Source of the DNA: Mesorhizobium huakuii
GTDB taxonomy: Bacteria; Pseudomonadota; Alphaproteobacteria; Rhizobiales; Rhizobiaceae
Assembly: GCF_014189455.1 (NCBI RefSeq)
Contig: NZ_CP050296.1
Location: forward strand, 5,638,001-5,702,000
DNA length: 64,000 bases
Reading direction: 5' to 3'
Shown here: piece by piece, positions 2,443-21,775 of the stretch
Position numbering within the stretch: position 1 is the first letter of the stretch
How the letters are laid out: every line of letters starts with the position of its first letter
Program-made: the position numbers and the translations under genes
The notes under the pieces: generated by a model
Seen by the model: the letters and a program-made list of their open reading frames with translations, nothing else
Told to the model about the DNA's origin: nothing
Databases searched by the model: none

Positions 2443-2449
2443 AACGGGG

Positions 2450-3691: not shown

Positions 3692-3692
3692 A

Positions 3693-4070: not shown

Positions 4071-4092
4071 CCGATTTAACCAAAGTACCGGC

Positions 4093-4110: not shown

Positions 4111-4147
4111 TCTACCCCCATGCAACAACATGCACGGAGGTAAACGC

Positions 4148-4461: not shown

Positions 4462-4477
4462 CCCGAAAGGGTCATCG

Positions 4478-6848: not shown

Positions 6849-8248
6849 GAGCTATGGCTGAAACTGGGTGATGACGGTTTGAGAAGGGCGGCGTATCGAG
6901 GCGGGTGATGAAGCCTGCCAGAACCTCTCAAGGAGAGCGATACGCCATGAACGAGACTATCAACATTGTTCGCCTTCGTCAGCCCGACGAAATCGATGAT
7001 CCCCCTGACGGATGTGCTTCGCACCGGCGCGCGCAAATTGCTGGCGCAGGCGATCGAGATGGAGGCCGAAGCGTTTCTTGCCGAGATGCGGGATCTCAAG
7101 CTTCCGGACGGACGTGACCGGCTGGTCCGGCACGGTCACGGGCCGGAGCGGAGCATCCAGACGGGGATCGGGGCGGTGCCCGTCAGCCGGGTGAAGGTCC
7201 GGGATCGCGGCGCGAACGGTGAAGCGGAGCGCATCCGTTTTTCCTCATCGATCCTGCCGAAATGGGCGCGTCGGACACGAAGTCTGGATGCGCTTCTTCC
7301 CGTTCTCTATCTGCGCGGCATTTCGACGGGCGACTTTCAGGAAGCTCTGGCAGCTCTGTTGGGCAAGGAGGCGCCGAACCTCTCACCCTCGGTGATCACG
7401 CGACTGACGGCGGAGTGGGGCATCGAATACGATCGTTGGCAAAAGCGCGATCTTTCGGCGCGCCGCTATGTGTATGTGTGGGCGGACGGGGTCTACCTGC
7501 AGGCCCGGATGGAAGATCATGCCGAATGCATGCTGGTCCTGATCGGCGCCACGCCCGAGGGCAAGAAAGAGCTGCTCGGCTTCCAGACCGGCATTCGTGA
7601 GAGCGCACAGAGCTGGCGCGAGCTGCTGGTCGACGTCAAGCGTCGTGGCCTGCAGATCGCGCCCGATCTTGCCGTCGGCGACGGCGCGCTTGGCTTCTGG
7701 AAAGCGCTCGATGAGCTCCTTCCCGGCACCAAGCACCAGCGATGCTGGGTGCACAAGACAGCCAACGTGCTCAACAAGGTGCCGAAATCGGTGCAGGCCG
7801 CCATGAAGACGGACTTGCGCGAAATCTTTTCCGCCCCGAACCGAGCCTCAGCCGAGACGGCGATTGCCGTCTTTGTCGAGAAATATGATGCGAAATACGG
7901 CAAGGCGGTCGACTGCCTGACCAAAGATCAGAATGCCTTGCTGGCGTTCTACGATTTCCCCGCCGAACATTGGGATCATCTGCGAACGTCCAATCCCATC
8001 GAGAGCGTCTTTGCGACCGTTCGCCATCGCACGGTGCGTACCAAGGGCTCACTCTCCTCGAAAACCGCCAGGCTGATGGTCTTCAAGCTGGTCATGGCCG
8101 CGGCCAGGACGTGGCGACGACTGAAAGGACAAAATCAGTTGCCTAAACTCATCGCAGGTGCAACGTTCCAGGATGGAATCGAGGTCATTGAACTGAAGCC
8201 GCAGAGCGCCGCTTGATCAGCCTCGTCACCCAAATTGCAGCATAGCTC
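6849..8248 (+). mobile_element. IS256-family insertion sequence, 1400 bp
   Basis: The termini are imperfect inverted repeats of about 29 bp: GAGCTATGGCTGAAACTGGG at the left against GAGCTATGCTGCAATTTGGG read from the right end. AAGGCATCAA directly precedes (6839-6848) and follows (8249-8258) the element, a 10-bp perfect target duplication (the family norm is 8-9, so one or two bases may be chance). It encodes one Mutator-type transposase. The intact duplication argues for recent insertion. Confidence 0.88.
6947..8216 (+). pseudogene. IS256-family transposase, frame broken near its start
   Basis: The protein has the Mutator/IS256 layout, with DDE residues plausibly in VWADGVYLQ, LAVGDGALGFW and SNPIESVFATVRHRT, and the family CWVHKTANVLNK motif. 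The natural start appears to be ATG 6947 behind AGGAG (MNETINIVRLRQPDEIDDP), but that frame shifts after five C bases at 7001-7005 and ends at 7117. The long frame (LTDVLRTGARKLLAQ onward, through 8216) can start only at TTG 6966 or ATG 6996. One C fewer would restore a 423-residue protein. The element may still move if an internal start works. Confidence 0.8.
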
Positions 8249-8947
8249 AAGGCATCAATATCGAGGTCCGCAGTCTGAACCCTGGTGGCGCGGCCTTTGA
8301 TAAGTCGTTCAAGATGATGACCGCAACCAACCTGCCAGGCGGCGAGATTTCCTATCGCGAGACTAGGCATACCGTGAAACAGCGTGTCAGTGTCGGCCAG
8401 CGCACCCTAGCTAGCAATGATGACAGTGACACGCGGACGCAAGCACCATTACGGCTGATGAAGTCGGAAGATGAACGTATAGCTCGGATCGACGGTCAGC
8501 CCATTCTTGCCGCCTTGCGTGTCGGCATTGGAAACGCGCTGGATCCGTTCGAAGATGCTGCCCTTGACGGAGCCACGCTCACCGAGATCGGCGACCGTCT
8601 CGGCTTCAGGTGGAAGGCGCGCAGCGCGGAAGCAAAGTGGCGGGTATATCTGGCGATCGACCGGATGCGCGACCAATGGCGGCTTATCGAGCGCCAGATG
8701 GCGGCCGAAGCCGCGGCATGTCGTCGGCGCGTAGAAACGCGACGTGCCGAACTCATTGCGGCGCAACGGTCCTATCTTGGCACGGCCGCGTAGTTATACC
8801 CCAAGTCGATTCCAAAGGTATAAGACGGGAATAGTGATCCTTTCCCAGTCAGGGCGATCCTGACATTTTTGAGCCGTGCCACCAGCGTGATGTTGTTGGC
8901 CGGCTCTCCCCCTTTTTGCCAAAATCAAAAACTTACAGAGGAAAACC

Positions 8948-9378
8948 ATGGACGCATGGCTGCACCGCGCATTCACGCGCGAAGAGTGCGCGATGCTGTG
9001 CGGCATCCCGCGTGGCTCGCTAGATGTGCTGACGCATCGCGCCCGCGAGTGTCGGTGCTTTTCACGGAAAAGCGCGGAACCAAACGATGGTTTTCCGTGA
9101 AAGACATCGCGGTGTTGAGAATCGCTCATGAATTGGAGCGCTCTGGCCGCTCCTGGCTAATGGCCATCGGCCAAGCGTTTGACCATCTTGAACGTCCGCC
9201 AGATCCTGACGCGCTCTTGATCGCTCCTGCAGTCATCCGGCGCGGCTGTGGCCTGCCCCGCATCGTCCGTGACCGAGACGTCCCGCGGCTTAACTTCGAA
9301 CGATCCGAGATCGTTATTCCGATCGGCCGCATCGTTTCCGAAATCACCAAAGAGGCGGCCCTCGTATGGTCGCCTTAA
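8948..9378 (+). pseudogene. MerR-like helix-turn-helix phage regulator, frame broken
   Basis: ATG 8948 follows a good GAGG site and gives MDAWLHRAFTREECAMLCGI, an HTH opening helix, but reads into a stop at 9101. The second frame continues the same fold (VLFTEKRGTKRWFSVKDIAVLRIAHELE, then GRSWLMAIGQAF) to 9378. Joining them near 9050-9058 needs one base. The combined protein, about 143 residues, looks like a MerR-type regulator of the kind found upstream of phage structural genes. The target is unknown. Confidence 0.55.
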
Positions 9379-9425
9379 CACCAGTTTCGAATCCGGCTGC
9401 CTCGTCGGAGACAGTCGTCGATCGA

Positions 9426-9453
9426 CCCCGGCCCACCTCAAAGTGGGTCGGGG
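9426..9453 (+). terminator. Strong hairpin before the head-gene block
   Basis: CCCCGGCCCAC pairs with GTGGGTCGGGG (10 of 11 positions) across a CTCAAA loop. The T run after it is weak (TTGAATTTTG), so it may be a terminator for the regulator gene or a structured leader of the gene at 9482. Confidence 0.5.
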
Positions 9454-9481
9454 TACCGCCTTGAATTTTGAAAGGAATAAC

Positions 9482-10087
9482 ATGGCCGCCAAACGACCGG
9501 AGCCAACCCCTGCCGCTGAGCAGTTAGAAGCGATTTCGCGTAAGCGGGTCGCCTTGAACGCACGAGATAAGGATATTCTCGCCGCAGTGCTCGACCTCGA
9601 GCACCAGGGTATACGACCGCAGGAAAAATCGACTTCTGGACCAGATCCCCGCGATCTTGCGGCATCGCTGCTTGACGGCTCTGCGTTGCCGGCCGCTCGA
9701 CCTCCCACGCCCGGCGAAGAACTGTTTCAACTATTGGTCGAACGTCAGGCCATTACAATCGCGCTCGACGCGCTGGCCGAACGCGAAAACCAAGCGCGCC
9801 GCATCGCCGCCGCTGAAGCTCTGCAGGAAACCGCAGCGGATTGGCTGGAGATCGTCCGCCAACGCGCACTCGCTGTTTTGACTCTAAGGCGCCTCAACCA
9901 AGAGGCCGCTGCCTTCAGGGATCGCCTCCGGCGCATCGCAGGAGGCAATCCAACCAACCTAATCTGCGACTTCAACTCAGGGCCAGTGTTCGGCCCGGCG
10001 ACAATCGGCGACCACGTCTACAGCTACCTCGAGGCCTGTGTGAAGGCTGGGGTCCTTTCACGTTCGGAGATTAACAATGCGGCATGA
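9482..10087 (+). CDS. Hypothetical element protein, coiled coil
   Basis: 201 residues. The ATG at 9482 has AAAGGAATA upstream; a longer frame from 9248 has no such signal. Two long helical blocks (AEQLEAISRKRVALNARDKDIL, and about 85-150 with ALAERENQARRIAAAEALQ) suggest a coiled coil. It overlaps the capsid gene start by ATGCGGCATGA. A scaffold or head-assembly role fits the position but there is no sequence proof. Confidence 0.65.
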   Translation: MAAKRPEPTPAAEQLEAISRKRVALNARDKDILAAVLDLEHQGIRPQEKSTSGPDPRDLAASLLDGSALPAARPPTPGEELFQLLVERQAITIALDALAERENQARRIAAAEALQETAADWLEIVRQRALAVLTLRRLNQEAAAFRDRLRRIAGGNPTNLICDFNSGPVFGPATIGDHVYSYLEACVKAGVLSRSEINNAA

Positions 10088-11161
10088 AGTATTTCAAATC
10101 GGCGCCCGTCGCGCCTTCGACGGCAAGTCGCCGCAATTAGCAGAGCGTGCTGGCCAGTGGGTTGCGGCGGCGTTGCTTCAGCAAGAAAAAGGCAGCAGCC
10201 TGGTGCGGTGATCGCGGCATCGCCATCGAAAAGGCGGCTCAGGGCGAACTGGTCGGTGGATCCGGTGGCTTCACTGTGCCGGAAGAGATCGAATCCGAGA
10301 TCATCGAATACCGAAATAGCCTGGCGGTTTTCAGGCAGGAAGCGCGCATCCGTCAAATGGGTTCAAGCTCACTGTCGGTGCCAAAGCGCACTGGTGCGCT
10401 TGCCGGGTACTACATCGGCGAAAATGTCCCCCTCACGGAGTCTGATAACGCTTGGGGCAACATAGAGCACGTGGCGAAGAAAGCCTGCGGCGCTGACCCG
10501 TCTCTCAAGCGAAATGTGGGAGGATTCCGCCGCGGATCTCGGCGCGTTCTTCGTGGAGGAACTCAGCGCTTGCTCCGCTGATTTGGAAGATGACGCTGGC
10601 TTCAACGGCGACGGCACGTCCACCTACGCGGGCATTTCGGGCATCTGCCCCAAGTTCGTTGCTGGTCTTGGTGGCGCAAGCCAGCTTGCCGGTGCGGTCG
10701 TTGCGACCTCCGCCCATGATACTTTCGAGGAAATTGATGCAACCGACATTGCCGCTCTGATGGCGGCGCTGCCCGAACGGTACTGGACCAGTGCGAAGTT
10801 CTACGTTTCTGGGTATGGCGCCGCAAAGTGCTTTGCCAGGATCGGTGCCACGGTCGGCGGCTGGATCATGACCGCAAATGGGTTGCGGCCGATGCTCTCG
10901 TTCATGGGCTTCCCAATCGTCCTGAGCCCGAAGTTGCCCGGCTCTGGTGATCTTAGCAATCGTGTCATGATCGTTTTTGGCGACATGCGTGCCGCTGTTT
11001 CCTTCGGCTCGCGCAAGGGCGTCTCTGTGGCGGTGAGCCAAAATCGCTATTTCGACCTAGATCAAATCGGCGTCCGAGGAATCGAGCGCTACGACATCAA
11101 TTGCCATGGTGTTGGCGATGCCACAACGGCGGGGCCTCTCGTTGCTCTGATCGGAAACTGA
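10077..11161 (+). pseudogene. HK97-type major capsid protein, two frame breaks
   Basis: Three overlapping frames together read like one HK97-fold capsid. The N-terminal piece (10077-10211) ends soon after AAAAA at 10186-10190. The middle frame continues with GIAIEKAAQGELVGGSGGFTVPEEIESEI and SDNAWGNIEHVAKK. The third begins near 10480 and contains ALTRLSSEMWEDSAADLG, EDDAGFNGDGTSTYAGI and the usual C-terminal fold to 11161. Each junction needs one base removed. Restored length is about 360 residues, normal for the unprocessed or delta-domain-less form. The capsid lies before the protease, the reverse of the usual order. Confidence 0.8.
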
Positions 11162-11163
11162 AC

Positions 11164-11697
11164 ATGGCTGAGTTGAAACACTTCTCCCCGACGACAATCC
11201 TGAAGACTGCTGGCGCCGGAATTGGTCCGCGCCAGGTTAAAGCGATCGTGAGCACAGGCGAACTCGACCGCATGGGCGACATCATCGACCAGGCTGGCAT
11301 CCGGCTCGACGCCTTTCGTAAGTCGCCGACCGTATTTTGGGGGCACGATACCAACGTGCCAATTGCCAAGGCGCTTTCGATTGGAATCGAGCTGGGCAAG
11401 CTGACGGCCTTAGTCCAATTCCCTGATCCGGGAGTCTCCGCAAAAGCGGACGAGATTTATGGCCTCGTCCGGGCCGGCATCGTCAACTCGACTAGCGTTG
11501 GTTTCGTGCCGTTGAAAGCGGTGCCGATCGACCCTTCGAAGCCGTATGGCGGGCAGCGTTTTACGAGCTGCGAACTGCTGGAATTCAGTTTTGTAGGGGT
11601 TCCGGCCAACGCCGGTGCCCTAATTACGGGGCGCTCGGCCAGCCAGACGCCGCGCCTCGACGCGGCCAAGCGCCGCTTCGCGCATCTCAGCCGGTAA
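11164..11697 (+). CDS. HK97-family prohead protease
   Basis: 177 residues, a typical size. The order VKAIVSTGELDRMGDIIDQAG, FWGHDTNVPIAKAL, LVRAGIVNSTSVGFVPL and LEFSFVGVPANAGALI matches the U35/S78 prohead protease family. The His of WGHD and the Ser of NSTSVGF are the expected catalytic pair. The ATG at 11164 follows the capsid stop by two bases, so expression is coupled. It would cleave the capsid delta domain during head maturation. It appears intact although the capsid frame is broken. Confidence 0.9.
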   Translation: MAELKHFSPTTILKTAGAGIGPRQVKAIVSTGELDRMGDIIDQAGIRLDAFRKSPTVFWGHDTNVPIAKALSIGIELGKLTALVQFPDPGVSAKADEIYGLVRAGIVNSTSVGFVPLKAVPIDPSKPYGGQRFTSCELLEFSFVGVPANAGALITGRSASQTPRLDAAKRRFAHLSR

Positions 11698-11735
11698 CAA
11701 CATCAAGATTGGGAAGCCAAGAGACGGGCAAACCC

Positions 11736-11783
11736 AGGCCGGCGGCAGGGTTCATGAGGGGGCTCAACCGCCGGCCTTTCTTT
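11736..11783 (+). terminator. Terminator after the prohead protease
   Basis: A 10-bp perfect stem (AGGCCGGCGG with CCGCCGGCCT), a 22-nt loop and TTTCTTT. It separates the capsid-protease pair from the following genes. Confidence 0.75.
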
Positions 11784-11803
11784 ACAACCACAAGGAATAC
11801 CAA

Positions 11804-12031
11804 ATGCAGAACCAAGACCGGCAAACCGGCACCGTCGTGACCTGGGTCGACAACGCAGCGTTCGGATTCGCAGCACCCCACGATGGCGGCCCAGATTTGT
11901 TCATCCACGTCACCCAACTGCCTAGTGGCACCGACGGGCTGCGCATCGGCCAGCGCGTTTCATACCTTGCCCAACTAGACCAGCGCACAGGCAAGCAGCG
12001 AGCCGTGAACGTCGAGGTCATCGACCGATGA
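11804..12031 (+). CDS. Cold-shock-domain protein
   Basis: 75 residues covering one complete CSD. GTVVTWVDNAAFGFAAP resembles the RNP1 region (here FGF instead of YGF), DLFIHVTQL fits RNP2, and the C-terminal strand is GKQRAVNVEVID. AAGGA precedes ATG 11804. CspA-type proteins bind single-stranded nucleic acid. Here the gene lies among head genes and overlaps the next gene by ATGA, so it is part of the element's late operon rather than a stray host gene. Confidence 0.75.
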   Translation: MQNQDRQTGTVVTWVDNAAFGFAAPHDGGPDLFIHVTQLPSGTDGLRIGQRVSYLAQLDQRTGKQRAVNVEVIDR

Positions 12032-12453
12032 GCGGCAAGGTCCACAGCGCGGCGGGTGGCGACTCGTTCGTTGTAGAATCCGGCGGCCAAATGCTCATCG
12101 AAAGCGGCGGTCGCTTAGTCGCTGAAGCCGGCTCGCTCGTTGAGATCATGCCGCGGTGGAAGACCTTTCCCTTGACGACACACGCCATCTCGCCTCTCGA
12201 AGCGGGAGTGCTAGTCAAGACCACGAACAGCAACCCAGTGTCGATCACTGTCCCGCCTGGCATTGCGCTTGCGGCACCGGTCACGGTGCACCAGCTCGGC
12301 GCTGGTCAGGTGACGTTCGTTGAAGGGTCTGGCGTCAACATCCGCACCCCAGAGACGTTGAAGATCGCAAAGCAAGGCGCTGCCGTCACCCTCTCCGCCA
12401 CTGACATCGCCGACGAATACGTGTTGGCCGGATATCTCGAACGGACGGCATGA
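12028..12453 (+). CDS. Putative phage structural protein (head decoration or fibre-like)
   Basis: 141 residues. The N-terminal 45 residues are Gly/Ser rich with an imperfect repeat (VESGGQMLIESGGRLVAEAG). The rest is a beta-rich segment (VTVHQLGAGQVTFVEGSGVNI, then GAAVTLSATDIADEYVLAGYL) of a kind found in phage tail and head decoration proteins. It starts in an ATGA overlap with the CSD gene. Function is inferred from position and pattern. Confidence 0.55.
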   Translation: MSGKVHSAAGGDSFVVESGGQMLIESGGRLVAEAGSLVEIMPRWKTFPLTTHAISPLEAGVLVKTTNSNPVSITVPPGIALAAPVTVHQLGAGQVTFVEGSGVNIRTPETLKIAKQGAAVTLSATDIADEYVLAGYLERTA

Positions 12454-12568
12454 CTACAACCCGGAGTGGTAGGCGGTCTAAAAAGGTTTGTGGCCGAACC
12501 CCTTGGGACCGCTTCGGGGCTTACCTTTGCTAAACGTCCAGTTTTTTTGTTTCTGAAGAAGGTTTTTC

Positions 12569-13009
12569 ATGGCAGCGCGAGGCAGAAAATCGACCGCCAG
12601 CTTGGCAATCCAGACCGTCAACATCGGTCAGGCGACCACGTTGCGACCGGCAGAAGGCCTGTCGGAAGCCGAGGCCGCGCTGTGGTTCGACATGATCGCG
12701 TGCATGCCGTCTGGCTTCTTTCGGCCGGAAAATGCCGAACTCCTGGCGAGCTATGTGAGGCATTCTGTTTCGGCGCGCGACTTGTCCAAGATGGTCGCGG
12801 ATTTTCACCCCGAATGGTTGGTGAAGGAAGGCGGCCTCGAGAGATTCGACAGGCTGCTGAAGATGCGCGAGCGGGAGTCGCGCGCAGCATCGGCTGCGGC
12901 TCGTTCCCTGCGAATGACGCCGCAATCCCAGCAAGATCCGAAGACTGCCGCTCGCAAGCGAAACAGCGGCTGGGAACCTAGCGCTTACGAAATGATGGCC
13001 AATGACTAA
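12569..13009 (+). CDS. Phage small terminase subunit, P27-like
   Basis: 146 residues. AEAALWFDMIACMPSGFFRPENAELLASY followed by HPEWLVKEGGLERFDRLLKMRERESRAASAAARSLRM is the P27-family small terminase pattern, with the long C-terminal helices and a basic tail. AGAAGG precedes ATG 12569. It normally recognises the packaging site and works with a large terminase ATPase, which is absent here. It could divert a helper's packaging motor. It overlaps the next gene by 8 bp. Confidence 0.75.
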   Translation: MAARGRKSTASLAIQTVNIGQATTLRPAEGLSEAEAALWFDMIACMPSGFFRPENAELLASYVRHSVSARDLSKMVADFHPEWLVKEGGLERFDRLLKMRERESRAASAAARSLRMTPQSQQDPKTAARKRNSGWEPSAYEMMAND

Positions 13010-13313
13010 AGACAAGAAAGCACTGAAACGCTGCATGGAAATAGCATCCCGCGATCCCAGCCGCGCCGGACAACTCGCCGACATGCTGAAGGATCGGCCA
13101 TGGGAAGAAGTGGCGGCGTTCGCCTGCTATTGCGTGCAATCCCAGGCGCTGAATTTGAAGCCCCACGAAACCGCCCCGGCCTTCGCTGATATTCTCTATC
13201 CCGAGGGGATCCGGCGCGATCCCGATGCCGGCGCGCTTCAAGACAAGATGCTGGCCGCCGGCCTATCGGTCTTCGAACCGGACCCTCTTTTTGCACTAAG
13301 GAACAACAGATGA
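13002..13313 (+). CDS. Hypothetical element protein
   Basis: 103 residues, starting inside the end of the terminase gene. The sequence is helical (RAGQLADMLKDRPWEEVAAFACYCVQ) and ends with a short conserved-looking segment (PAFADILYPEGIRRDPDAG). Not recognised. Its ATGA overlap with the next gene places it in the same operon. Confidence 0.65.
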   Translation: MTKDKKALKRCMEIASRDPSRAGQLADMLKDRPWEEVAAFACYCVQSQALNLKPHETAPAFADILYPEGIRRDPDAGALQDKMLAAGLSVFEPDPLFALRNNR

Positions 13314-13672
13314 ACACAGCACGTGACACGCTCACCGCAGCGTTTAAAACAATGAAGAAGACCGCGATAGCTGCCCACGCACTCGACATGGCTGACGAAC
13401 TCGAGCGCATGCACTACGCCTTTGGCAACGCGATCGAAGGGATGAACGCCGCCGCCGCCGCAGTCGGTTCCTTCGAAGAACTTGTTCGCATCATGAAGGC
13501 TGACATTCGAACCGCCAGCAATCTCTTCCAGAGCGGCAGGAAGCGCGCAGCGCGAGAACTGTTGTTGAGGATGGCGGCCACCCCTGACTTGGACCAGATC
13601 ACCTTGCCGACGCATCAGGTGGAATGGTCGGCGGCGGTGTTCAACCCTGCAGATGCGCAGGCTCGTCACTAA
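13310..13672 (+). CDS. Hypothetical element protein upstream of the tape measure
   Basis: 120 residues, all-helical composition (TAIAAHALDMADELERMHYAF, then ADIRTASNLFQSGRKRAARELLLRM). The position just before the tape measure is where phages keep tail assembly chaperones, so that role is possible, but no family motif is visible. The stop overlaps the tape-measure start (TAATG). Confidence 0.6.
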   Translation: MNTARDTLTAAFKTMKKTAIAAHALDMADELERMHYAFGNAIEGMNAAAAAVGSFEELVRIMKADIRTASNLFQSGRKRAARELLLRMAATPDLDQITLPTHQVEWSAAVFNPADAQARH

Positions 13673-15891
13673 TGGCCGATGAAGTCGTCGTAACAGAACT
13701 CACTATCGACGCGCGAGGTGCAGAAGCCGGCTCTGCCGCCTACGTCAAAGCGATGAAGTCCGCGCAGGCCGCCTACGACAAGGCGATGGATAGCGCCAAC
13801 GCTGCGACTGAGGCGGTTGCAAAGCAGACCACGGTCATGACCGGTGGGGCTAACTCTATCACATCTACCGCGCGCGCTTGGGACCGCTTCAAGGCATCAG
13901 TCGACCCAGCCTTTCAAGCAACGCAGCGGATGGAACGCGCACTCCTCACCGCTGACGCAGCTGCAAAGAAGCTCGGTGTCGACCAGAACGAAATCAACCG
14001 CGTTATGGACTTGGCTCGCGTGAAGCACCTTGGCACCGCCGTTGCGGTCGAGGAAGGCGCACGGGCAGCGACTATGGGCGCTACCCAATGGGCGTCGCTA
14101 GGCCACGCTGCGCGCTCTGCAGCCGAGAGTATCGCCATGGGACAGTCGCCGATGATGGTGATGACTCAGCAAGCCAATCATCTCTCCTACGCCATGAGCG
14201 GGCCGCAGGGGCTAATCGCGGCATCGGCTGGTGTGCGTGCTGCGTTTGGCACATGGTTGACCACAATCCCCGGCATGCTCTCCACGGCAGGTGTGGCCGC
14301 AGTCGCAGCGGTTGCCGTCTACATGGCTGCTACCCGCGAGAAGATTCTGTCAGTTGATGAGATTCTTGAGGGGCACAAGAAGCTGCTCGACGAGGTCGCC
14401 AACACCTACCCGCACCTCACTGAAGCATTGAAGAAATACGCGGACGAGGCTGCGAAGCTCCCCGGCTCCGTTATTGCTGCCGATGCGAAGACACAGATCG
14501 AAAACGATCAACGGTCTTTGGCAGCATCCTTGGACCATCTTAAGGTGGATCTGCGCGACCTGGCCAGGGCGTCTGATGTGGTCGGCACCTCTGGTGCAGA
14601 GGCATTTGGCAAGATCGCAGATACGATCGATGCCGGAAACGTCAATGTCGACAAGCTGGTAGCCTCTGTCGGCGATCTGCGCCTCGATCCGTCACTAACG
14701 CCGGATGCGCACCACTTCGCTGATGGCCTCCAGGCCGCGGTCAACGAAGTGAAGAAGCTCCAGGACATCCTTGACAAAGACCAGGGCATAAAGCGCATTG
14801 GTCCCGATGGCCAGAAGGCCACGCAGACCCTTGCCGAGGTTTCCGCCGGCTTCAAGGATGTCTCGGCCAAGGCCGGCACGGCAGACGCGACGATCGCCAA
14901 GCTGTTCGGCGATGCGAGCGCCTCCAGCGGATTCGGCGTCAGCAAGTCGCTGCAATCGACGCTGGGGCAATTCGAACAGATTGACCAGGCTGTCCAACAC
15001 GCCAGGCAGGACCAGTTGCAGGGCATGCTCAGCCTCGAGCAGCAATATCGGAACACCACCACGCAGGTCGATACGCTGAAGCAGGCCATCGCGACGGCCG
15101 GCAGCAAAGAGAATATGGCTGCTTTCTTCGATGACACCTCCAAAATCAAGGACGCCAGCGCCGACATCACCAGCGCGACGTCGACCGTGACGAAGCTGTT
15201 TGACGCGCTCAACCGCGGCGGAACGAGCGTTCAGAACGTCTACGCGGGCCTCGATATGGTGCGGCAGACGCTCATCCGCGACGGCTTCGGCGTCGACGCC
15301 GTCAATAAGTTCATCGACAGCTTGGTCCGTACCCGGATGCAGTTGGACGCCGACACGGCCGGCGCAAAGCAGCTTGGTGCCGCGGTTCAAGCCCTCAAGG
15401 ACAAGACCGTCACCATAACAGTCGTGACGCAGCAGGTGGGCACAGGTACGAAGTCGATTTACGATGTGCCAGGCGGCCCTGTAGGGGTCACCAGATATGG
15501 CGGCGATGGCAATCCAAGCTTCACGCAGCAGTCCTATCAGGTGCCCAGCGGCTCCGGCACCAGTGGCGTTACAGTCACCCGTTTCGGAGGCACACGCGCA
15601 GCAGGCGGCCCTGTGTCGGCTAGCACGCCCTATTGGGTAGGTGAGCATGGTCCTGAGCTTGTCGTGCCGCAGAACGCTGGCACGGTAATCCCCAACGCCC
15701 AGTCGATGGCGCTGGCCAATCCTCAATCCGCCTTTACCGGCCGCGAAGCCACGCGCGAGCAGGACCGCATCTGGACCGTCCTCCTCAACATCGAAGCGAA
15801 CACTCGCAAGACTTATGAGGGTGTGGATAAGTGGGGGTCAGTAGCACCTACAGCTCCGGCGGGTCTTCGTCTGGCTCAACTGGCACCATGA
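13672..15891 (+). CDS. Tail tape-measure protein
   Basis: 739 residues from ATG 13672; a longer upstream frame lacks support. The N-terminus (TELTIDARGAEAGSAAYVKAMK) and the long Ala-rich helical body are typical of tape-measure proteins. A hydrophobic segment lies at about 190-225 (AAFGTWLTTIPGM, then AGVAAVAAVAVYMAAT). The C-terminus has GGPVSASTPYWVGEHGPELVVP, the recurrent tape-measure tail motif. The length would correspond to a tail of roughly 100 nm if the usual scaling applies. It overlaps the next gene by 61 bp. Confidence 0.8.
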   Translation: MADEVVVTELTIDARGAEAGSAAYVKAMKSAQAAYDKAMDSANAATEAVAKQTTVMTGGANSITSTARAWDRFKASVDPAFQATQRMERALLTADAAAKKLGVDQNEINRVMDLARVKHLGTAVAVEEGARAATMGATQWASLGHAARSAAESIAMGQSPMMVMTQQANHLSYAMSGPQGLIAASAGVRAAFGTWLTTIPGMLSTAGVAAVAAVAVYMAATREKILSVDEILEGHKKLLDEVANTYPHLTEALKKYADEAAKLPGSVIAADAKTQIENDQRSLAASLDHLKVDLRDLARASDVVGTSGAEAFGKIADTIDAGNVNVDKLVASVGDLRLDPSLTPDAHHFADGLQAAVNEVKKLQDILDKDQGIKRIGPDGQKATQTLAEVSAGFKDVSAKAGTADATIAKLFGDASASSGFGVSKSLQSTLGQFEQIDQAVQHARQDQLQGMLSLEQQYRNTTTQVDTLKQAIATAGSKENMAAFFDDTSKIKDASADITSATSTVTKLFDALNRGGTSVQNVYAGLDMVRQTLIRDGFGVDAVNKFIDSLVRTRMQLDADTAGAKQLGAAVQALKDKTVTITVVTQQVGTGTKSIYDVPGGPVGVTRYGGDGNPSFTQQSYQVPSGSGTSGVTVTRFGGTRAAGGPVSASTPYWVGEHGPELVVPQNAGTVIPNAQSMALANPQSAFTGREATREQDRIWTVLLNIEANTRKTYEGVDKWGSVAPTAPAGLRLAQLAP

Positions 15892-16543
15892 CCAAGGTCG
15901 GCGGTGACCTGTACGATCTGAACGGGTTGAACGCCGCAGGTCACACTGCTGCGCAGGTAGCGGCCTTCAGAGATATTCTGACCTCCGCAATGTCCAACTA
16001 TTCGGCTATCGGCGGCATGGGCCTCATCGGCTATGGGGCAAACGCCCTGGCGGCCACGCCACAGCAGATCGCCTACAACCTGGCCTATGGCGGCGGGCAA
16101 TCAGTCGGCATCCCGGCGAATTCCAGAGTAGGGCCATCCGCCCCTACAGCACTGCATGGCGGCGATCCGTACAACGCCATGCTCAACGGGATTAGCCCAA
16201 GTTCTCCAGGCTATGCTGCGGCATATGCGCAGGCGCTTGCCGCATCGAACAAGGCGGCCGGCTTCTCGACGGGCGGTATGATCGGCGGCGATTCCCGTGA
16301 CACGCAGAAGGTCGAGTTCTTCAAGCGACCTTCTGAGCGGGTGATCATCGCAGACAACGACCAGTTGGATGATCAGCGCAGTGGGGGGTGCGATCGGGTG
16401 GTGGAAGCCAGCGGCCTATCCAGTTCAGCCAGACCAACCATTGGAACGGCAATGCGCCGCCGTCAAAGGACAGTCTAGCCGCTGTCCGTCGGGCAACGGC
16501 ACTTGGCTTCCAGGATGCGCAAAGGTCGCAATATGGTCGCTAA
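15831..16543 (+). pseudogene. Second tape-measure-like or tail protein, frame broken
   Basis: The first frame gives a Gly/Ser-rich N-terminus, then TGGMIGGDSRDTQKVEFFKRPSERVIIAD, the motif seen at the C-terminus of many tape-measure proteins. After six G bases at 16383-16388 the sense continues in another frame as GGSQRPIQFSQTN and DSLAAVRRATALGFQDAQRSQYG, ending at 16543. One more G would join them into about 237 residues. It starts inside the tape-measure gene and could be the separated C-terminal part of that protein. Confidence 0.65.
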
Positions 16544-16610
16544 AGCTGTGCCCTGGCTGGCCTTCACGCTTTCCGTTGGCCTCGTGTTGGCGCTGGCGTG
16601 GCCGTTCTAG
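16533..16610 (+). CDS. Very small hydrophobic peptide after the tail gene
   Basis: 25 residues (from ATG 16533), nearly all one membrane segment (PWLAFTLSVGLVLALAWPF). AAAGG lies eight bases upstream. Its place after the tail genes recalls holin or spanin peptides, but the length is extreme and the call is tentative. Confidence 0.35.
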   Translation: MVAKAVPWLAFTLSVGLVLALAWPF

Positions 16611-16682
16611 AAATCGCTGGGCTTGCCCTGGCGCCGCCGTCGACTGCGGATGTACCAGCGACGGCGGACTAAAGCGGGCGGT

Positions 16683-16691
16683 TTATCCACA
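16683..16691 (+). promoter_or_regulatory. Perfect DnaA box TTATCCACA
   Basis: This matches the DnaA consensus at all nine positions. A weaker relative, TAGTCCACA, follows at 16695-16703. It lies in the gene-poor right arm of the element about 2 kb from the iteron cluster. A single box can be chance. Confidence 0.45.
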
Positions 16692-16791
16692 GCTAGTCCA
16701 CAACCGTGGACGACGGGCAATCGGTTAACGACAAGAGCGCCTTCCCGAACTAATGTTAGGGCGGGCTCAATTGCCCTCCAAAAGCGCACTC

Positions 16792-16830
16792 AGCCCGTTG
16801 CCACGATGGGACAGGCAGCGGGCTTTTTTT
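16792..16830 (+). terminator. Terminator at the end of the structural operon
   Basis: AGCCCGTTGCC pairs with GGCAGCGGGCT across an 11-nt loop and is followed by seven T bases. It closes the rightward late operon. The 180 bases before it hold only the DnaA box and no convincing gene. Confidence 0.85.
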
Positions 16831-16899
16831 GAAGCGGCCGGCGATCAATGCCCTGAGGCTTAACCGAATTGCCTCCGAGGTCGAGTCCGGGAGGGAAGC

Positions 16900-17154
16900 A
16901 TGCAGGACCAGCGTTTCGATGAGCCGGTGCGGGTTGCGCTCGGCAGATCAAAGAACACGACTTTCAAGGTTGAGCGCGTCGCCCAGGCCGCGGACATCCT
17001 GCTAAACCGCTGGCCTGTGAAGACGGGCCGCTGTCACGTTGCCGCCCGCAAGGCATGCTTGGGCGTGCTCGAGGGGCTAAAAGAGGCCGGCTATGCCCGC
17101 GCCGCCTTCGTCAATGCGGCGATCGAGGCAGATATTCTTAGGGACCCGGATTGA
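16900..17154 (+). CDS. DUF982-type small protein
   Basis: 84 residues. The pattern (EPVRVALGRSKNTTFKVERVAQAADILLNRWPVKTG, then HVAARKACLGVLEG and ARAAFVNAAIEADIL) matches the DUF982 family, abundant in Rhizobiales chromosomes and plasmids. Its molecular role is unknown. GGGAGG precedes the ATG. Presence in the element suggests cargo picked up from rhizobial hosts. Confidence 0.75.
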   Translation: MQDQRFDEPVRVALGRSKNTTFKVERVAQAADILLNRWPVKTGRCHVAARKACLGVLEGLKEAGYARAAFVNAAIEADILRDPD

Positions 17155-17230
17155 TAGACCTTGCCGACGCCACCAATATCAGGAATATAATCCTCCCGTT
17201 GCGGCGATCCCCTCAAAACGGAGATCGCCA

Positions 17231-17479
17231 ATGGCCAGGTCAAAACCCTCAAAGCAGTTATCGCAGGCTGAAATCGAACGCTTTCTAGCAGCAGCGGAAG
17301 CGCTGCACCTAAGCATCGTCAAACCGTTCATATCCCCGTTCTGCGACCACTACAGGCAGACGCGTGTCTTGCATGAGGTGCTGTTGAAGGCCGTGCGGGA
17401 CGTCACCGGGGCGGAAGTCCCGTTCATCCGGTGGAAACACCACGGGACCGGTGCGACCCCCTTTAAGCTAATTGCGTGA
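17231..17479 (+). CDS. Hypothetical small protein
   Basis: 82 residues, helical N-terminal half (SQAEIERFLAAAEALHLSI) and a short basic C-terminus. The start ATG 17231 is preceded by GGAG, which lies in the 3' arm of a hairpin (GGCGATC with GATCGCC), so its translation could be structure-controlled. Not recognised. Confidence 0.55.
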   Translation: MARSKPSKQLSQAEIERFLAAAEALHLSIVKPFISPFCDHYRQTRVLHEVLLKAVRDVTGAEVPFIRWKHHGTGATPFKLIA

Positions 17480-17564
17480 TTGCTAATATACTAATATTCA
17501 ATCAGCGCGGGGGAATGCTCCCGCAGTGGCCGGTGTATCGGGGAGATTGTCCTGGTTAATGGCC

Positions 17565-17861
17565 TCAGCCATGATACGACCGGACGTTTTGATCAGAGCC
17601 GTGACGGAAATAGCTTGTGGCTCCCCGATCCCATTTCACCTTGGCATTGTGATAGGTGACTTCAACGACGGTCCCGCACTCCGTCCCACGAGTACGTATC
17701 ACGCGCTGCCCTAGCTTTAGAGCGGCGGGCCTATTGGATTCGGAGGATTTTGTCAGTAGCACAGGCCTTTCTCCCTTTGGGGGCGAAAGCACCTGAGTTG
17801 ACTTCCAAGCGCCCGTTTGCCGGATAAGGCGGGCGACTTGGGGATTGTACGCTTCCGACAA
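17565..17861 (-). CDS. Small protein with an SH3/KOW-like barrel
   Basis: 98 residues if it starts at TTG 17861, which lies in a 35-bp repeat. The convincing part is the C-terminal 55 residues (KLGQRVIRTRGTECGTVVEV, then VKWDRGATSYFRHG), a KOW/SH3-type barrel common in small Rhizobiales phage proteins. A shorter start is possible. Function is unknown. Confidence 0.5.
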   Translation of the reverse strand: MSEAYNPQVARLIRQTGAWKSTQVLSPPKGERPVLLTKSSESNRPAALKLGQRVIRTRGTECGTVVEVTYHNAKVKWDRGATSYFRHGSDQNVRSYHG

Positions 17862-17881
17862 TCTATTAGCGAGTCATTCCG
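17847..17881. repeat. 35-bp repeat, copy 1
   Basis: 33 of 35 bases equal those at 18406-18440. The copy covers the 5' end of the leftward gene ending at 17565. Confidence 0.8.
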
Positions 17882-17934
17882 CTGGGGGAACCCGTAACGG
17901 TAAGTTGCGTTGTGACGCCAAGGGACAACTTTTG

Positions 17935-18099
17935 ATGAGCGACGAGCAGCGCAAGCAGCCGACCGCAGCGGACGAACTTATCCGTAGGTTGGTCAAAGAG
18001 ACCGGGATAACCGAAGCGCAGGCTCGGGAGCTTGTCCTGTTCCTCGGCTACAACTGGTCATCGTTGGTGCGAGAAGCCCGGATGCTGAAGGAACCTTAG
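17935..18099 (+). CDS. 54-residue helical protein
   Basis: ATG 17935 follows AAGGGACAAC. The sequence is charged and helical, and its C-terminal part (TGITEAQARELVLFLGYNWSSL) resembles the C-terminal part of the DUF2934 protein at 19538-19894 (TGITGDQAQDLIDRLGDDRAAI), pointing to a shared small module. It converges on and overlaps the leftward gene at 18096. Confidence 0.55.
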   Translation: MSDEQRKQPTAADELIRRLVKETGITEAQARELVLFLGYNWSSLVREARMLKEP

Positions 18100-18323
18100 A
18101 ACGGGTGCGCGCCGTTTGGTTTCCAGTCCTTCACTACCCCGTCAAGAGCCATCTTGATATGGTCTGGGCTATCGATGCCACCAGTGAAAAGAGCGATCAG
18201 GCGCCGCGCCAGATGCTCGCGGGCTGGGTGTGTGCCTTCCATGCCAGCTTGCTCGCAATAATCGTCCAAAATCCTGGTGAGTGTTGCCAGCTGAATTTCG
18301 TCAGCCGTTCCGCGAATGGTCAT
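18096..18323 (-). CDS. Conserved hypothetical protein of Rhizobiales type
   Basis: 75 residues. LATLTRILDDYCEQAGMEGTHPAREHLARRLIALFTGG is a pattern seen in many small Rhizobiales proteins of unknown role (helical, no motif for catalysis). A copy of the 35-bp repeat lies 83 bp upstream of its ATG and may hold its promoter. The 3' end overlaps that of the rightward neighbour by 4 bp. Confidence 0.6.
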   Translation of the reverse strand: MTIRGTADEIQLATLTRILDDYCEQAGMEGTHPAREHLARRLIALFTGGIDSPDHIKMALDGVVKDWKPNGAHPF

Positions 18324-18405
18324 CTCGCATACTCCCTATTGGGCGAAAGCGTGATCGACTCTTTCAAGCGCTCTTTGCCATTGAAGACCGAGCGACAAAG
18401 GAAGG

Positions 18406-18440
18406 GTACGCTTCCGACAATCGGTTAGCGAGTCATTCCG
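18406..18440. repeat. 35-bp repeat, copy 2
   Basis: Differs from 17847-17881 at two adjacent bases. Placed 83 bp before the leftward gene at 18096-18323. Confidence 0.8.
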
Positions 18441-18532
18441 TTGTCTAGTTTGTCACACCCTTAATTTCTGATGTTTACCAGGGATGCCCTTCCGCAGCCT
18501 CATCCCAGCCCGCCGCCGTTCTTTTGAGGGCC

Positions 18533-18701
18533 TCAGCCCGCCAGCGCGCGACCGACAGCAATTCCAATTCCAATAGCAAGGCCTGTCGCGAGCTTGCCGC
18601 CGAGTTCAATGGCAATGGCGCCAACTACGCCGCGCCAATCCCTGCGGTGGGGCAGTGCCAGCGCCTTGGAGAGTTCATCGAAGGTACGGTCGTGTTTTCA
18701 T
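18533..18701 (-). pseudogene. Short membrane peptide, frame broken (holin-like)
   Basis: On the minus strand ATG 18701 has AGGAT upstream, but four A bases at 18695-18698 throw the frame. With three A bases a 55-residue peptide results: a charged start (HDRTFDELSKAL), WRGVVGAIAIELGGKL, and a Gly/Ile/Ala-rich membrane segment (ATGLAIGIGIAVGRALAG). It could be a small membrane protein of the phage. The call depends on one base. Confidence 0.35.
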
Positions 18702-18733
18702 GGTGTCATCCTGCCGTTGGCCAGATGACGTAT

Positions 18734-18906
18734 TGATCCACAAAATAACGGTAGAGTCCACATGGATTCTCCCAAATACATTTAGGCGTTTTCGCATATT
18801 CAATCCTGATACTTAAGGCGAAAACGCCTTGGAGCGAAGTTGTGTAAACGCCTTGTTTCTTGGACAAAAAATGTGAAAACGCCTAGTTGCTAGGCGAAAG
18901 CGCCTT
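18734..18906. repeat. Iteron cluster, candidate replication origin of the element
   Basis: Five GAAAACGCCT-type units: reverse copy 18783-18800, palindrome AAGGCGAAAACGCCTT 18815-18830, forward 18841-18854, forward 18871-18885, and palindrome AGGCGAAAGCGCCT 18892-18905. A DnaA-box-like TGATCCACA lies at 18734-18742 and the surroundings are AT richer than the rest. The same unit occurs once before alpA at 4093. No gene of note lies in 18702-19165. Confidence 0.6.
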
Positions 18907-19090
18907 GCCGAGTGGATAGCGAAAATAAATATTGTGAAGGTTCTTGCAACCGGTCCGATTCTCGGCCATGCTTTTAGACAAGGGTAAGGGGTTAACTGCA
19001 AAAAAAGGTCGAAACGGCGCGGACCAAGATCGTCTTGGCCGGGGTGGCAAGCCATGTCCAAGGCTAAGCGCCTAAAAGCTTGCCAGCGAT

Positions 19091-19157
19091 CTCCAGTCGC
19101 CTCTCTCCCCCGGCAGCCGGGCCATCCGGCGTGGGGCCTGGAGAGGCCAAACTGGAG
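19091..19157 (+). promoter_or_regulatory. Structured leader of the gene at 19166
   Basis: CTCCAGT (19091-19097) pairs with ACTGGAG (19151-19157), and CCTCTC (19100-19105) with GAGAGG (19141-19146), enclosing a GC-rich arm with CCGG repeats. The stem ends nine bases before the ATG and includes the likely ribosome-binding GGAG, so it may control translation. Confidence 0.4.
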
Positions 19158-19165
19158 AACTGAGA

Positions 19166-19492
19166 ATGACCGTTTTAGATGAAGGTCAGGAATTTCACTC
19201 GAGTAGCAGCGCGGCTAACGCCGAACAGCCGCCAACCACCTGGCGCTTCAAGCTAGGCCAGTGCATCTCCCACAAAGACCAAATCTTACCGTCGCTTGTT
19301 ATGGGGCGGGTTAAGACCAGCAAAGGGCGCGAGGTGTACGGCCTGCGCTCTTTTATGAACGTGGATCCGAACCGCGACAGGATGATACTGGGTGACAGCC
19401 TGGTGGACGTCGTACCGGGCAGCGAGCCGTGCTTAGAGTGCTTGCTGCATCAGACGGCGTTGTGTCCTGCATGTTGGCTGGCCGACGCCTAA
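19166..19492 (+). CDS. Hypothetical element protein, Cys-rich C-terminus
   Basis: 108 residues. The middle (FKLGQCISHKDQILPSLVMGRVKTSKGREVYGLRSF) looks like a small beta barrel, and the C-terminus holds four cysteines (CLECLLHQTALCPACW) that could bind zinc or an iron-sulfur centre. Not recognised. It is followed by a strong bidirectional terminator. Confidence 0.65.
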   Translation: MTVLDEGQEFHSSSSAANAEQPPTTWRFKLGQCISHKDQILPSLVMGRVKTSKGREVYGLRSFMNVDPNRDRMILGDSLVDVVPGSEPCLECLLHQTALCPACWLADA

Positions 19493-19515
19493 CCGCTCCC
19501 ACATCACAACGACAG

Positions 19516-19543
19516 AACCCCGCCTAGTGCGGGGTTTCTATTT
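19516..19543. terminator. Terminator between convergent genes
   Basis: AACCCCGC pairs with GCGGGGTT across CTAGT, followed by TCTATTT. It lies between the rightward gene ending at 19492 and the leftward DUF2934 gene. Confidence 0.8.
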
Positions 19544-19894
19544 GCTGAAATTCTGCTGCCCAGCGGCCAAGCTCCGCGCCGCATCCTCTATTGCCGCCCG
19601 GTCATCGCCCAGCCGGTCTATAAGGTCTTGTGCCTGATCGCCGGTGATGCCGGTTCGCATCGCCAGGGCCTCGACGGTCATGACGTCAGAAATGGAGGTC
19701 TCGCCGCGGCGCGGCTTCTTTGCCTTGCTCGATAACGCGGTAGTGGTGCCTTGGCGGGCCTCCAGTGCAGCCTCGCGCTCGATTTCAGCCTCAGCTTGGT
19801 GCCAATGTTTCTCCGGATCGCCATGCACGCCGCCTTCGCGCTCCCAAATTTCGTATGCGCGTCGCTGAATTGCTTCGTCCCGTTCGTCGTCCAT
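19538..19894 (-). CDS. DUF2934 protein
   Basis: 118 residues from ATG 19894. The N-terminus (DEAIQRRAYEIWEREGGVHGDPEKHWHQAEAEI) is the DUF2934 signature, common in Rhizobiales. A Lys/Arg linker (SSKAKKPRRGE) precedes a helical C-terminal module that resembles the 54-residue protein at 17935. The function of the family is unknown. Confidence 0.75.
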   Translation of the reverse strand: MDDERDEAIQRRAYEIWEREGGVHGDPEKHWHQAEAEIEREAALEARQGTTTALSSKAKKPRRGETSISDVMTVEALAMRTGITGDQAQDLIDRLGDDRAAIEDAARSLAAGQQNFSK

Positions 19895-19984
19895 GGTGAT
19901 GCTCCGTGTTGATATCAACCAACGCTGAGCGCGACGGAATGATCCAGCACGGAATGGGTGATTTTTCTTGTATGGCCCCACCAC

Positions 19985-20021
19985 GAAAAAACCCGCTGCC
20001 GGGAGGGGTTGGCAGCGGGTT
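19985..20021 (-). terminator. Leftward terminator in the right arm
   Basis: AACCCGCTGCC and GGCAGCGGGTT form an 11-bp perfect stem with a 10-nt loop. Read leftward it ends in TTTTTT. It may stop transcription that runs from the tRNA-Pro promoter into the element. Confidence 0.65.
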
Positions 20022-20382
20022 GATTTCAAGCTCGCGGGGGGAGCTTGGTTCGCGCCATCGCTTGGGGGGGGTTGATGGCCGACAGCTAATAAAGTATCGG
20101 CTGCAATGACGCGCTGCAATTGTACGAGGGTATTGCCGCCCTAAGCGAAGGTGCTACGGGCATACGTCGCGCGGTAGGCGTGACGGCGAATAAGGGTACG
20201 AGGCCCGACGTCCGCATGAGGGACAAACAAATGCTCCGCCGTCACGAGACTCAACCTATCGGACTAGGGAAGGTTCCGAGGCTGCTGGAGCGACTGCTCT
20301 GGGCCTCGCGAGGCTCGCTGGCTACAATGTGGCTAGAAATTTTATAGCCACCTCTGGGGGAAACGGCTAAGCCTTTGTTTTT
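20022..20382. other. Gene-free right end of the element
   Basis: No reliable coding frame is visible in this 361-bp stretch. It holds the right-hand arm motifs (20318-20337 and 20340-20351) shared with the left end. Confidence 0.5.
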
Positions 20383-20461
<79 letters not shown>

Positions 20462-20515
20462 GACCGGTCGCGATGTATCGTGATAACCCCGCCCGGGTCA
20501 ACCGAAATTCGGTGT

Positions 20516-21775
20516 TTATCGCGCGATCGCCGATACGCCCGGAAATGCCGGCCGCAACAGCCGCTGATGGCGGTATTCCAGCGCGATGGCACCCCAGATC
20601 AGGCCGAGCAGCAGATACATATGGCGCCAGTGATCGATGTCGATGAAGGTGCCGAGCCCGATATTGCCGATGAAGGCGACATAGGCGCACAGGAGATAGG
20701 GCTGCCACGGCCGGTCGCGCAGCAGGATGCGGAACCCGGCCACTATGGTCCAGGCGACCAGCGTCAGGAACGACACGAAGCCGAGCCAGCCATAGTCCAT
20801 CAGCATTTTCAGCCAGATGTCGTGCGTGTCCTCGCCGAACATCTTGCCGAAGACCAGCGGCCCGATGCCAAACGGACGCTCCATCGCCATCTGGAAGCCG
20901 ATTCCGTAGCGGGCGAAGCGGCCGAGGCGGGCGGTGTCATAGCTCTGTTCGAGATGCGCGCGGCTGGAGAACATCTCCGACACGCCGGGCAGTTGCAGGA
21001 TGACGATGATGGCGATCGTCAGCAGTGACAGCGCGGCGATGGTCATGATCACCACGCGCAGCCGGAACTTGCCGCTGGCGCTCTGCAGGAACAGGCAGCC
21101 GGTGAGCAGCACGGCAGAGACGGCGAACATGCCCCAGGCGCCGCGCGAGAAAGAGAAGAAGATGCCCAATGTGATGATCAGCAGCGGCACCGCCAGCAAC
21201 GGCATGCGCGAGACCGAACCGGTCAGGATCAGATAGAGCAGATAGATGCCGGGCAGCACCAGAAACGGCCCGAAAACGTTCGGGTCCTGGAAGGCACCAG
21301 CGGCGCGATCGTATTTGGTGAACATCTCGGCGCCGGGGAAGGCATGGAAATAGCCTGCTATGCCGAGCAGCGAGGTCGCCACCGCCGAGACGACATAGGC
21401 ATTGAAGATCAGCCGGTAGAGGCCTGGCTGTGTGGCGGTGACGGAGGCGAAGAACACCGCGCTGAAGGCAAGAAACAGCGACACGGAGAGATAGAGCGGC
21501 GTGAAGGCGAGGTCCGCCATCTGCGTCATCGAAATCATGCCGCCGATGTTCATCGTCACCAGCAGCACCAGCAGCGGCATGGCCGCGCGGGAAATCCGCA
21601 AGCCGAAGAGCGCCCAGATGGCGATCAGCCCGGCCATGTAGATTTCGTAAGGCGCCGGCTCGCTGATGACGAAGCCGGACAGAAGGATACCGACCACCAC
21701 CGCAGCGGAAGAAATCAGCGCGATCAGCTTGGCGTTGACCGCGGCTCGCGGCAGCTCATGGGAAATCGCGCTCAA
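20516..21775 (-). CDS. O-antigen ligase/polymerase-like membrane protein (Wzy type)
   Basis: 419 residues if started at TTG 21775, whose TTGA overlaps the stop of the upstream glucosyl-phosphotransferase gene. About ten to twelve membrane segments are visible (for example LIALISSAAVVVGILLSGFVI, YIWALFGL-like blocks and MPLLAVPLLIITLGIFF). The Wzy_C-type region FSFSRGAWG and the large periplasmic loop (FARYGIGFQMAMERPFGIGP) match O-antigen ligase family members. In this locus it would polymerise lipid-linked exopolysaccharide repeat units. The reading frame is open further upstream, but only as a shadow of the neighbouring gene. Confidence 0.8.
   Translation of the reverse strand: MSAISHELPRAAVNAKLIALISSAAVVVGILLSGFVISEPAPYEIYMAGLIAIWALFGLRISRAAMPLLVLLVTMNIGGMISMTQMADLAFTPLYLSVSLFLAFSAVFFASVTATQPGLYRLIFNAYVVSAVATSLLGIAGYFHAFPGAEMFTKYDRAAGAFQDPNVFGPFLVLPGIYLLYLILTGSVSRMPLLAVPLLIITLGIFFSFSRGAWGMFAVSAVLLTGCLFLQSASGKFRLRVVIMTIAALSLLTIAIIVILQLPGVSEMFSSRAHLEQSYDTARLGRFARYGIGFQMAMERPFGIGPLVFGKMFGEDTHDIWLKMLMDYGWLGFVSFLTLVAWTIVAGFRILLRDRPWQPYLLCAYVAFIGNIGLGTFIDIDHWRHMYLLLGLIWGAIALEYRHQRLLRPAFPGVSAIAR

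Follow-up and report, generated by a model that had tools for sequence, protein, structure and literature searches.

The window analysed here, a stretch of 64,000 nucleotides from Mesorhizobium huakuii, contains an integrated element of 18.2 kb (2258-20431) bounded by 49 bp copies of the end of a tRNA-Pro gene. The left attachment repeat, a copy of the 3' part of the gene (2258-2306), is identical to the right one (20383-20431), which overlaps tRNA-Pro(GGG) on the reverse strand (20385-20461). The forward strand encodes an inward-pointing tyrosine integrase (2450-3691; PF00589, 1.9e-19; Arm-DNA-bind_3, 8.2e-9), an alpA-type protein of the excisionase/transcriptional regulator family (4148-4357; HTH_17, PF12728, 1.7e-5; phrog_66, 8.1e-6), a RepA-like AAA_25 ATPase (4955-6478; PF13481, 7.4e-37), a major capsid protein split over two overlapping ORFs with PF05065 matches (10147-11161; ORFs at 10147-10581 and 10514-11161) and a tail tape measure-like protein (13624-15891; phrog_8892, 7.9e-14, with PF06791 under cut-off). 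A Mutator-family transposase gene, assigned by family match, lies between the rep and capsid genes (6966-8216), and a protease gene was likewise recognised by family matches. The PF12728 match of the alpA-type protein, at 25.4 bits, falls slightly below the Pfam cut-off of 27, and the Pfam scan returned no Phage_AlpA match for it. The ATPase is related to the C-terminal part of the polymerase/primase of Rhizobium phage 16-3 (50.6% to p101). Within the subset of ORFs scanned, tape measure, protease and capsid genes were matched and no terminase, portal or lysis gene was. In a sister element from the same genus (G021), the capsid gene is a single ORF (G021 10399-11481) and the attachment repeat is just 14 bp.

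The gene order int, alpA-type, replication gene with int facing inward, a size of 18.2 kb within the 10-20 kb range, and the location of all family-matched genes on the forward strand correspond to the mostly unidirectional organisation of PICIs. The element resembles a partly decayed Gram-negative PICI (int-alpA-rep-capsid, 18 kb). As described in the available portions of PMC6092414, PMC10111431 and PMC10803314, Gram-negative PICIs with an AlpA activator likewise have an inward int, an alpA-type gene, a replication gene, mostly one direction of transcription, a size of about 18 kb and a capsid gene; the present element differs in its alphaproteobacterial host, AAA_25 Rep, tape measure gene and the putative CI-type operator in its alpA promoter. 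Given the tape measure gene, the split capsid gene and a small gene lacking a start, it may be a dead relic. An uncultivated viral contig of 15.2 kb (L192, UViG_2876787635_000003) has the order int-alpA-rep-protease-capsid and an AlpA 45% identical to that of the window, with no such operator, which suggests a wider family of int-alpA-rep elements lacking the CI-type operator.

A 15-mer unit, WKGYGWAARCGCCTW, is present in six copies in the window, five clustered near the right end of the element (18783-18906) and one ahead of the alpA-type gene, where a preliminary description had located them. Site 1 (18783-18797) lies on the reverse strand, on the side of the leftward promoter. The other four are on the forward strand: site 2 (18816-18830), which is 33 bp from site 1 and forms an inverted pair with it, site 3 (18840-18854), site 4 (18871-18885) and site 5 (18892-18906), 21 bp after site 4. 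The distal copy, ATGTGAAAACGCCTA, occupies 4096-4110 on the forward strand. Two of the units had been called perfect palindromes; these are more precisely inverted repeats, whose perfect arms of 5-6 bp stand around AAAA or AAAG. The AT-richer character noted for the cluster was borne out, with a G+C content of 0.432 across 18734-18960 against 0.59 for the element.

A 10-mer, GAAAACGCCT, occurs 10 times in the window with up to one mismatch against 4.35 expected, a count reached by none of 100 shuffles. The exact 10-mer is common across the genome (43 places in 8.45 Mb), so that wide occurrence in the host, which the preliminary description had held would count against its proposal, does apply to the bare 10-mer; six of the nine exact 15-mers in the 8.45 Mb genome, by comparison, fall inside the 18 kb element. 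With one mismatch the 15-mer is at background level (36 matches in the whole genome; reversed control, 46). Same-strand pairs of exact 15-mers less than 60 bp apart are found in the window's genome only at the right-end cluster, and across the genus 9 of 146 genomes contain such a pair (reversed control, 0). Neighbouring sites are spaced by 31-33 bp in 29 of 44 cases and by 21-28 bp in 8 of 44, alike in phages and elements.

The cluster belongs to a right-end module. On its left is a leftward small gene (18536-18697, reverse strand; 85% to a G021 protein of 54 codons), whose product has a glycine-rich hydrophobic tail and whose window copy has no in-frame start codon. Between this gene and the cluster lies a conserved TGGANTCCA-type segment (18734-18777), similar in G006, G021, G144 and G003, which may be a second control site. 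It contains the stretch TGATCCACA that had been read as DnaA-like; judged against the DnaA box consensus, this is not a DnaA box and instead represents the window's version of a segment reading TGGATTCCACA or similar in relatives. On the right, the gene for a 108-aa protein, P0003 (19166-19492, forward strand), is transcribed towards the right attachment site. Its relatives stand beside sites in G006, G021, G044, G138, G003, G014, G096, G001 and G142, as in the window. The module forms the tRNA-adjacent end, with P0003 reading towards the tRNA gene, in the window, G006, G021 and G044; in G142, the module with its site is on a contig other than that of the alpA-type locus. The small-protein family was matched in 51 of 146 genomes. 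Among 20 of these loci that were fetched, the eight best matches adjoin a site, and the other 12 have none scoring at least 13 with the matrix described below. Among the fetched viral contigs, tblastn identified P0003 relatives in L163 and L164, with no site directly adjacent; one of the two also carries a CI gene flanked by sites. Searching viral contigs by conserved stretches of the P0003 family confirmed no member. The predicted structure of P0003 (mean pLDDT 50) was too poor to use.

Promoters were read by eye. The alpA-type gene is preceded by a forward-strand promoter (4086-4114) with -35 TACCGG (4086-4091), a 17 bp spacer and -10 TATCTA (4109-4114), and the distal site lies within that spacer. 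A rightward promoter is proposed at the cluster (18861-18889, forward strand), with -35 TGGACA (18861-18866), 17 bp and a -10-like TAGTTG (18884-18889), its spacer filled by site 4. The site also fills the 17 bp -35/-10 spacer of the alpA or alpA-type promoters of G021, G044, G100, G001, G016, G054 and G014. Including that of the window, seven of the eight alpA-type promoters with a site have a TTGAC- or TCGAC-type -35, with a TA-type -10; the window's own has its -10 in the shared register and a poor -35. The rightward promoters of the module keep the same register in the window, G006 and G044. As read by eye, the sites thus lie in a fixed register relative to promoters, as would be expected of CI operators. 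A generic sigma-70 promoter scan of 18600-19560 returned no promoter.

The same sites surround repressor genes in prophages of the genus. In G042 and G116, six sites each are arranged around a gene for a protein with HTH_3 and Peptidase_S24 domains: the upstream sites form a cluster that faces a small divergent HTH-like gene, and downstream of cI there is an inverted pair. The G042 locus was found via the paired-unit search; G116 has a Rep relative, and its sites deviate slightly. In phage lambda, the operators of CI are arranged as OR and OL, and the G042 and G116 arrays are OR/OL-like, with the same 31-33 bp spacing as in the window. The small divergent gene in the cro position recurs at the other cI loci having sites. 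Aligned, the G042 and G116 CI proteins contain the Ala-Gly, Ser and Lys residues characteristic of S24 autocleavage. Queried with this CI, the genus yielded 38 matches, spread over 35 of 146 genomes. Thirty loci were fetched, in which the two closest CIs had six sites each (at most one mismatch), L092 had one and 27 had none. When viral contigs were scanned with the inverted-pair pattern alone, seven stretches on five contigs were recovered, of which one (L165) scored only 14.9 and was set aside. Three of the five contigs encode a CI 64-68% identical to that of G042 and flanked by sites.

A matrix was trained on 36 cI-flanking sites from seven loci, the window excluded. Applied to the 64 kb window, it placed the six sites at ranks 1-6 (15.1-32.5, the next match scoring 10.9), a test that is not wholly independent and is partly circular, since the training sites were chosen with the window-derived consensus (at most two mismatches); the bases beyond the 15-mer, the spacing and the positions are independent of that consensus. 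Sites 1 to 5 scored 32.5 (rank 1), 22.5, 15.1, 28.9 and 20.0, and the alpA site 31.0 (rank 2). Across 988 kb of other loci, a background that excludes operator loci and 20 loci picked for matches, no site reached 24 and two reached 20 (the G001 alpA site and one in L187). The recognition helix D[QE][SA][TS][VI]S[KR][YW]ER is common to six of the seven CIs with sites that were used for the matrix. The L150 CI differs partly at this helix yet has sites, and L149 is intermediate in both helix and sites. Eight further viral-contig CIs and that of G009 have no such helix and no site with at most one mismatch, except for one in L159; this comparison leaves out G034, G127 and G031, three of the four outlying CI relatives. 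Rhizobium phage 16-3 (NC_011103), despite its related replication gene, had no site scoring at least 13 in the 20 of 60 kb scanned.

The window sites thus match in sequence those flanking a CI-type repressor gene, and we consider it very probable, on this comparative evidence, that all six serve as operators for a phage repressor of the CI type, with an N-terminal HTH and a C-terminal S24 domain. This identity is well supported; binding of CI to the window sites would follow from it. The arrangement is like that of lambdoid CI operators in comprising inverted-repeat arrays in or beside promoters, which at the cI loci flank an HTH-S24 repressor gene with a divergent small HTH-like gene. It differs in that the window array stands 14.7 kb from the alpA-type site and that neither the element nor the genome yielded a repressor gene of this kind.

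To follow the recurrence of this arrangement, a composite promoter-operator pattern, TTGACWNNNWNKGYGAAANCGCCTA, was sought in the 146 genomes. At up to two mismatches, it matched in 37 genomes, with the reversed control also matching many. Its 17 matches with no or one mismatch all fell at cI (four), upstream of a phage trypsin-like gene (two, with an intervening ORF in G116), at int/alpA-type junctions (five: G044, G100, G001, G014 and G021) or beside right-end genes (six: G000, G006, G014, G021, G044 and G140). Two-mismatch matches were mostly assessed by the matrix and a tblastn scan; G016 among them is an alpA junction. Overall, a site precedes the alpA-type gene in eight elements (window, G021, G054, G044, G100, G001, G016 and G014), a count that is not an unbiased rate because five of the alpA sites were found using the operator pattern. 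Six of the eight alpA-type proteins match Phage_AlpA above the Pfam cut-off, and those of the window and G014 match HTH_17 only. Within the genus, alpA-type genes without a site there were those of G142 (at C23) and G006; six alpA-rep loci from elsewhere (L175, L192, L193, L196, L198 and L216) had no site scoring at least 17.

Four elements (window, G021, G001 and G014) have sites at both ends, in the alpA-type promoter and in the right-end module. At least three kinds of integrase and Rep are represented among them: those of G001 and G021 are related (integrase and Rep 44% and 60%), and the window and G014 have no integrase match to that of G021. The suggestion in the preliminary description that the protein binding the cluster also uses the alpA site as an operator is well supported, and the two-place layout is present in three other elements. 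No convincing motif common to the alpA promoter and other parts of the element emerged from a search in G142, L175, L192, L193 and L196, and L198 yielded nine matches against about two expected without a clear motif; this test is weak, as it recovers the window motif (21 against about 4) but misses the known G021 sites. Elsewhere, a direct pair of sites 31 bp apart was seen at G102:C1:315034-315079, with no cI, alpA or module gene matched nearby, and the window's own genome has one further strong site standing alone (G000:C1:6413860), between ORFs that by eye resemble etfA and bioB and with none of these genes nearby; it scores 25.0 and belongs to the loci excluded from the 988 kb background.

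At E 1e-3, no CI of this class was matched in the window's genome or in the host genomes of the other site-bearing elements, so that neither the element nor its present host has a recognised repressor of this type. G016 gave a weak HTH match to CI only, with no sites nearby, and the three S24 matches in the window's genome had no site with up to two mismatches near them. A 32-residue match to a cro-like query (929-1024; E 0.002) lies outside the element and was set aside. CIs of this class with sites occur in 2 of 146 genomes and, in this set, never in one genome with site-bearing elements; co-residence therefore does not demonstrate control by a helper.

The reading that best accounts for these observations as a whole is that of CI-type operators on a PICI-like satellite which is under its helper's repressor; we put its probability at roughly 0.6. 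For the component of control in trans by the helper's CI, the balance tips slightly in favour. With one operator in the -35/-10 spacer of the alpA-type promoter, and the five right-end operators acting as a bidirectional switch between the leftward small gene and the rightward 108-aa gene towards attR, the CI of a helper with this immunity would, in a lysogen, bind and keep alpA and the right-end genes silent. Upon helper induction CI would cleave itself, the satellite's activator would be released alongside the helper's lytic promoters, and the alpA-type protein would then start excision and replication. More broadly, and at even odds, a rhizobial satellite family may have given up its own repressor and taken over helper-immunity operators at its alpA promoter and right-end module, so that helper CI autocleavage fires the satellite directly; the right-end promoter may additionally read via the joined attachment site into int in the circle.

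In Gram-negative PICIs, alpA acts as an activator dependent on the helper, the inducing signal being left open in the available portions of PMC6092414, PMC10111431 and PMC10803314; the first of these (2018) describes the PICI inducer as under study and the existence of a global repressor as unclear. If correct, the presence of a helper-type CI operator within the alpA promoter would explain directly, for this group, how alpA comes to be activated by helpers, and helper-satellite pairs would become predictable from sequence. SaPI Stl systems are comparable in that the satellite is silenced by a repressor and released by the helper; according to the text available from PMC6092414, the SaPI repressor is encoded by the island itself and is lifted by a protein of the helper, whereas no own repressor was found here and the operators correspond to those of phage repressors. 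No published satellite under its helper's repressor, or with its operators, was found at the level of titles and abstracts, with subscription journals thinly covered, which is no proof of novelty. The RS1 satellite and its CTX phage share the RstR repressor and so also place satellite and helper under one repressor specificity; RS1, however, is filamentous and encodes RstR itself; in the window element, a repressor copy was not found.

The chief rival to a satellite listening to its helper's repressor, which is the simplest functional reading, is a relic origin: a complete temperate phage of this immunity would have given rise to the element, losing cI by deletion and leaving operators that now lack a function. 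The capsid gene in two ORFs, the startless small gene and the transposase gene would fit such decay, as would the presence of P0003 relatives in two viral contigs, one of which encodes the CI. We nevertheless regard this as unlikely. The satellite reading is favoured since the two-end layout persists in four elements whose integrases and Reps fall into at least three kinds; their promoter register is kept as well. In addition, three AlpA queries found no alpA in the 40 kb surrounding cI in either G042 or G116, and int-alpA-rep is the order given for PICIs in the available part of PMC10111431.

It is less probable again that the sites are bound, for autoregulation, by a protein of the element itself, whether the AlpA-type protein, P0003 or the small protein, with CI phages having arrived at a similar sequence by convergence. 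The sites do adjoin the alpA-type, P0003 and small-protein genes, and in an E. coli PICI the alpA promoter is activated by AlpA itself (PMC6092414, in the portion available). However, the alpA-type proteins of the window and G021 have no significant similarity (E 0.47), yet both elements have the site; G100 and G001 have a site where G142 has none, although their AlpA proteins share 67-69% identity with the G142 protein; and the cI loci have sites without AlpA.

The preliminary description had favoured a replication origin, with iterons bound by the RepA-like ATPase at two places. Satellite P4 has a two-site arrangement of this kind at ori and crr. The direct repeats do lie in an AT-richer stretch of an element having a Rep gene, but this candidate was rejected, and we hold it to be highly improbable, as the motif follows CI, not Rep. 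G021 carries the same sites though its Rep is barely similar to that of the window (27% over 110 aa), whereas the G142 Rep gene, 79% identical to the window's but stop-interrupted, has no site scoring at least 13 in the surrounding 40 kb. In other prophages these sites lie on either side of CI-type repressor genes, the alpA sites are in promoters and in one register, and the cluster is 12 kb from rep, with a TGGATTCCACA-type segment in place of a DnaA box. Rep relatives in viral contigs numbered 30 loci by alignment search and none by single-sequence search. A global chromosomal regulator of the host, which the presence of sites in hosts without a CI gene and the strong single site elsewhere in the genome might suggest, has similarly little to commend it, as 17 of the 20 places inspected, from 30 listed outside the element, are inside an open frame of at least 180 codons (six-frame measure) and none of the 20 has, by eye, TTGAC in register.

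In phages and prophages of this immunity (L247, L260, L164 and L169), a site or pair is also found upstream of genes near one for a trypsin-like secreted protease. These sites, which in G042 and G116 are about 44 kb from cI on the same contig, are perhaps part of a dispersed CI regulon.

Several minor features of the right end were also recorded. A MucR/Ros-like gene beside the module, considered as a common binder, is present in G006 and G138, with a copy in G054; it was not taken as such since none was matched in the window. A second group of small proteins has no operators and a different upstream segment with GGGATTCACA. An Rfam scan of 16700-20600 returned only the tRNA and a sub-threshold match to the sRNA ar14 at 19985-20087 (39.4 bits; gathering threshold 58.8), and by eye a similar segment follows the G138 module. 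The leader ahead of P0003 (18965-19180) shows strong RNA folding (z -2.86, equalled by 1 of 200 shuffles), its stem-loop part being similar, by eye, in G021 and G044. Portions of 16700-20380 were matched in 132 of 146 genus genomes, and near-identical segments, TACGCTTCCGACAATC..TTAGCGAGTCATTCCG, are present at 17848-17885 and 18406-18443.
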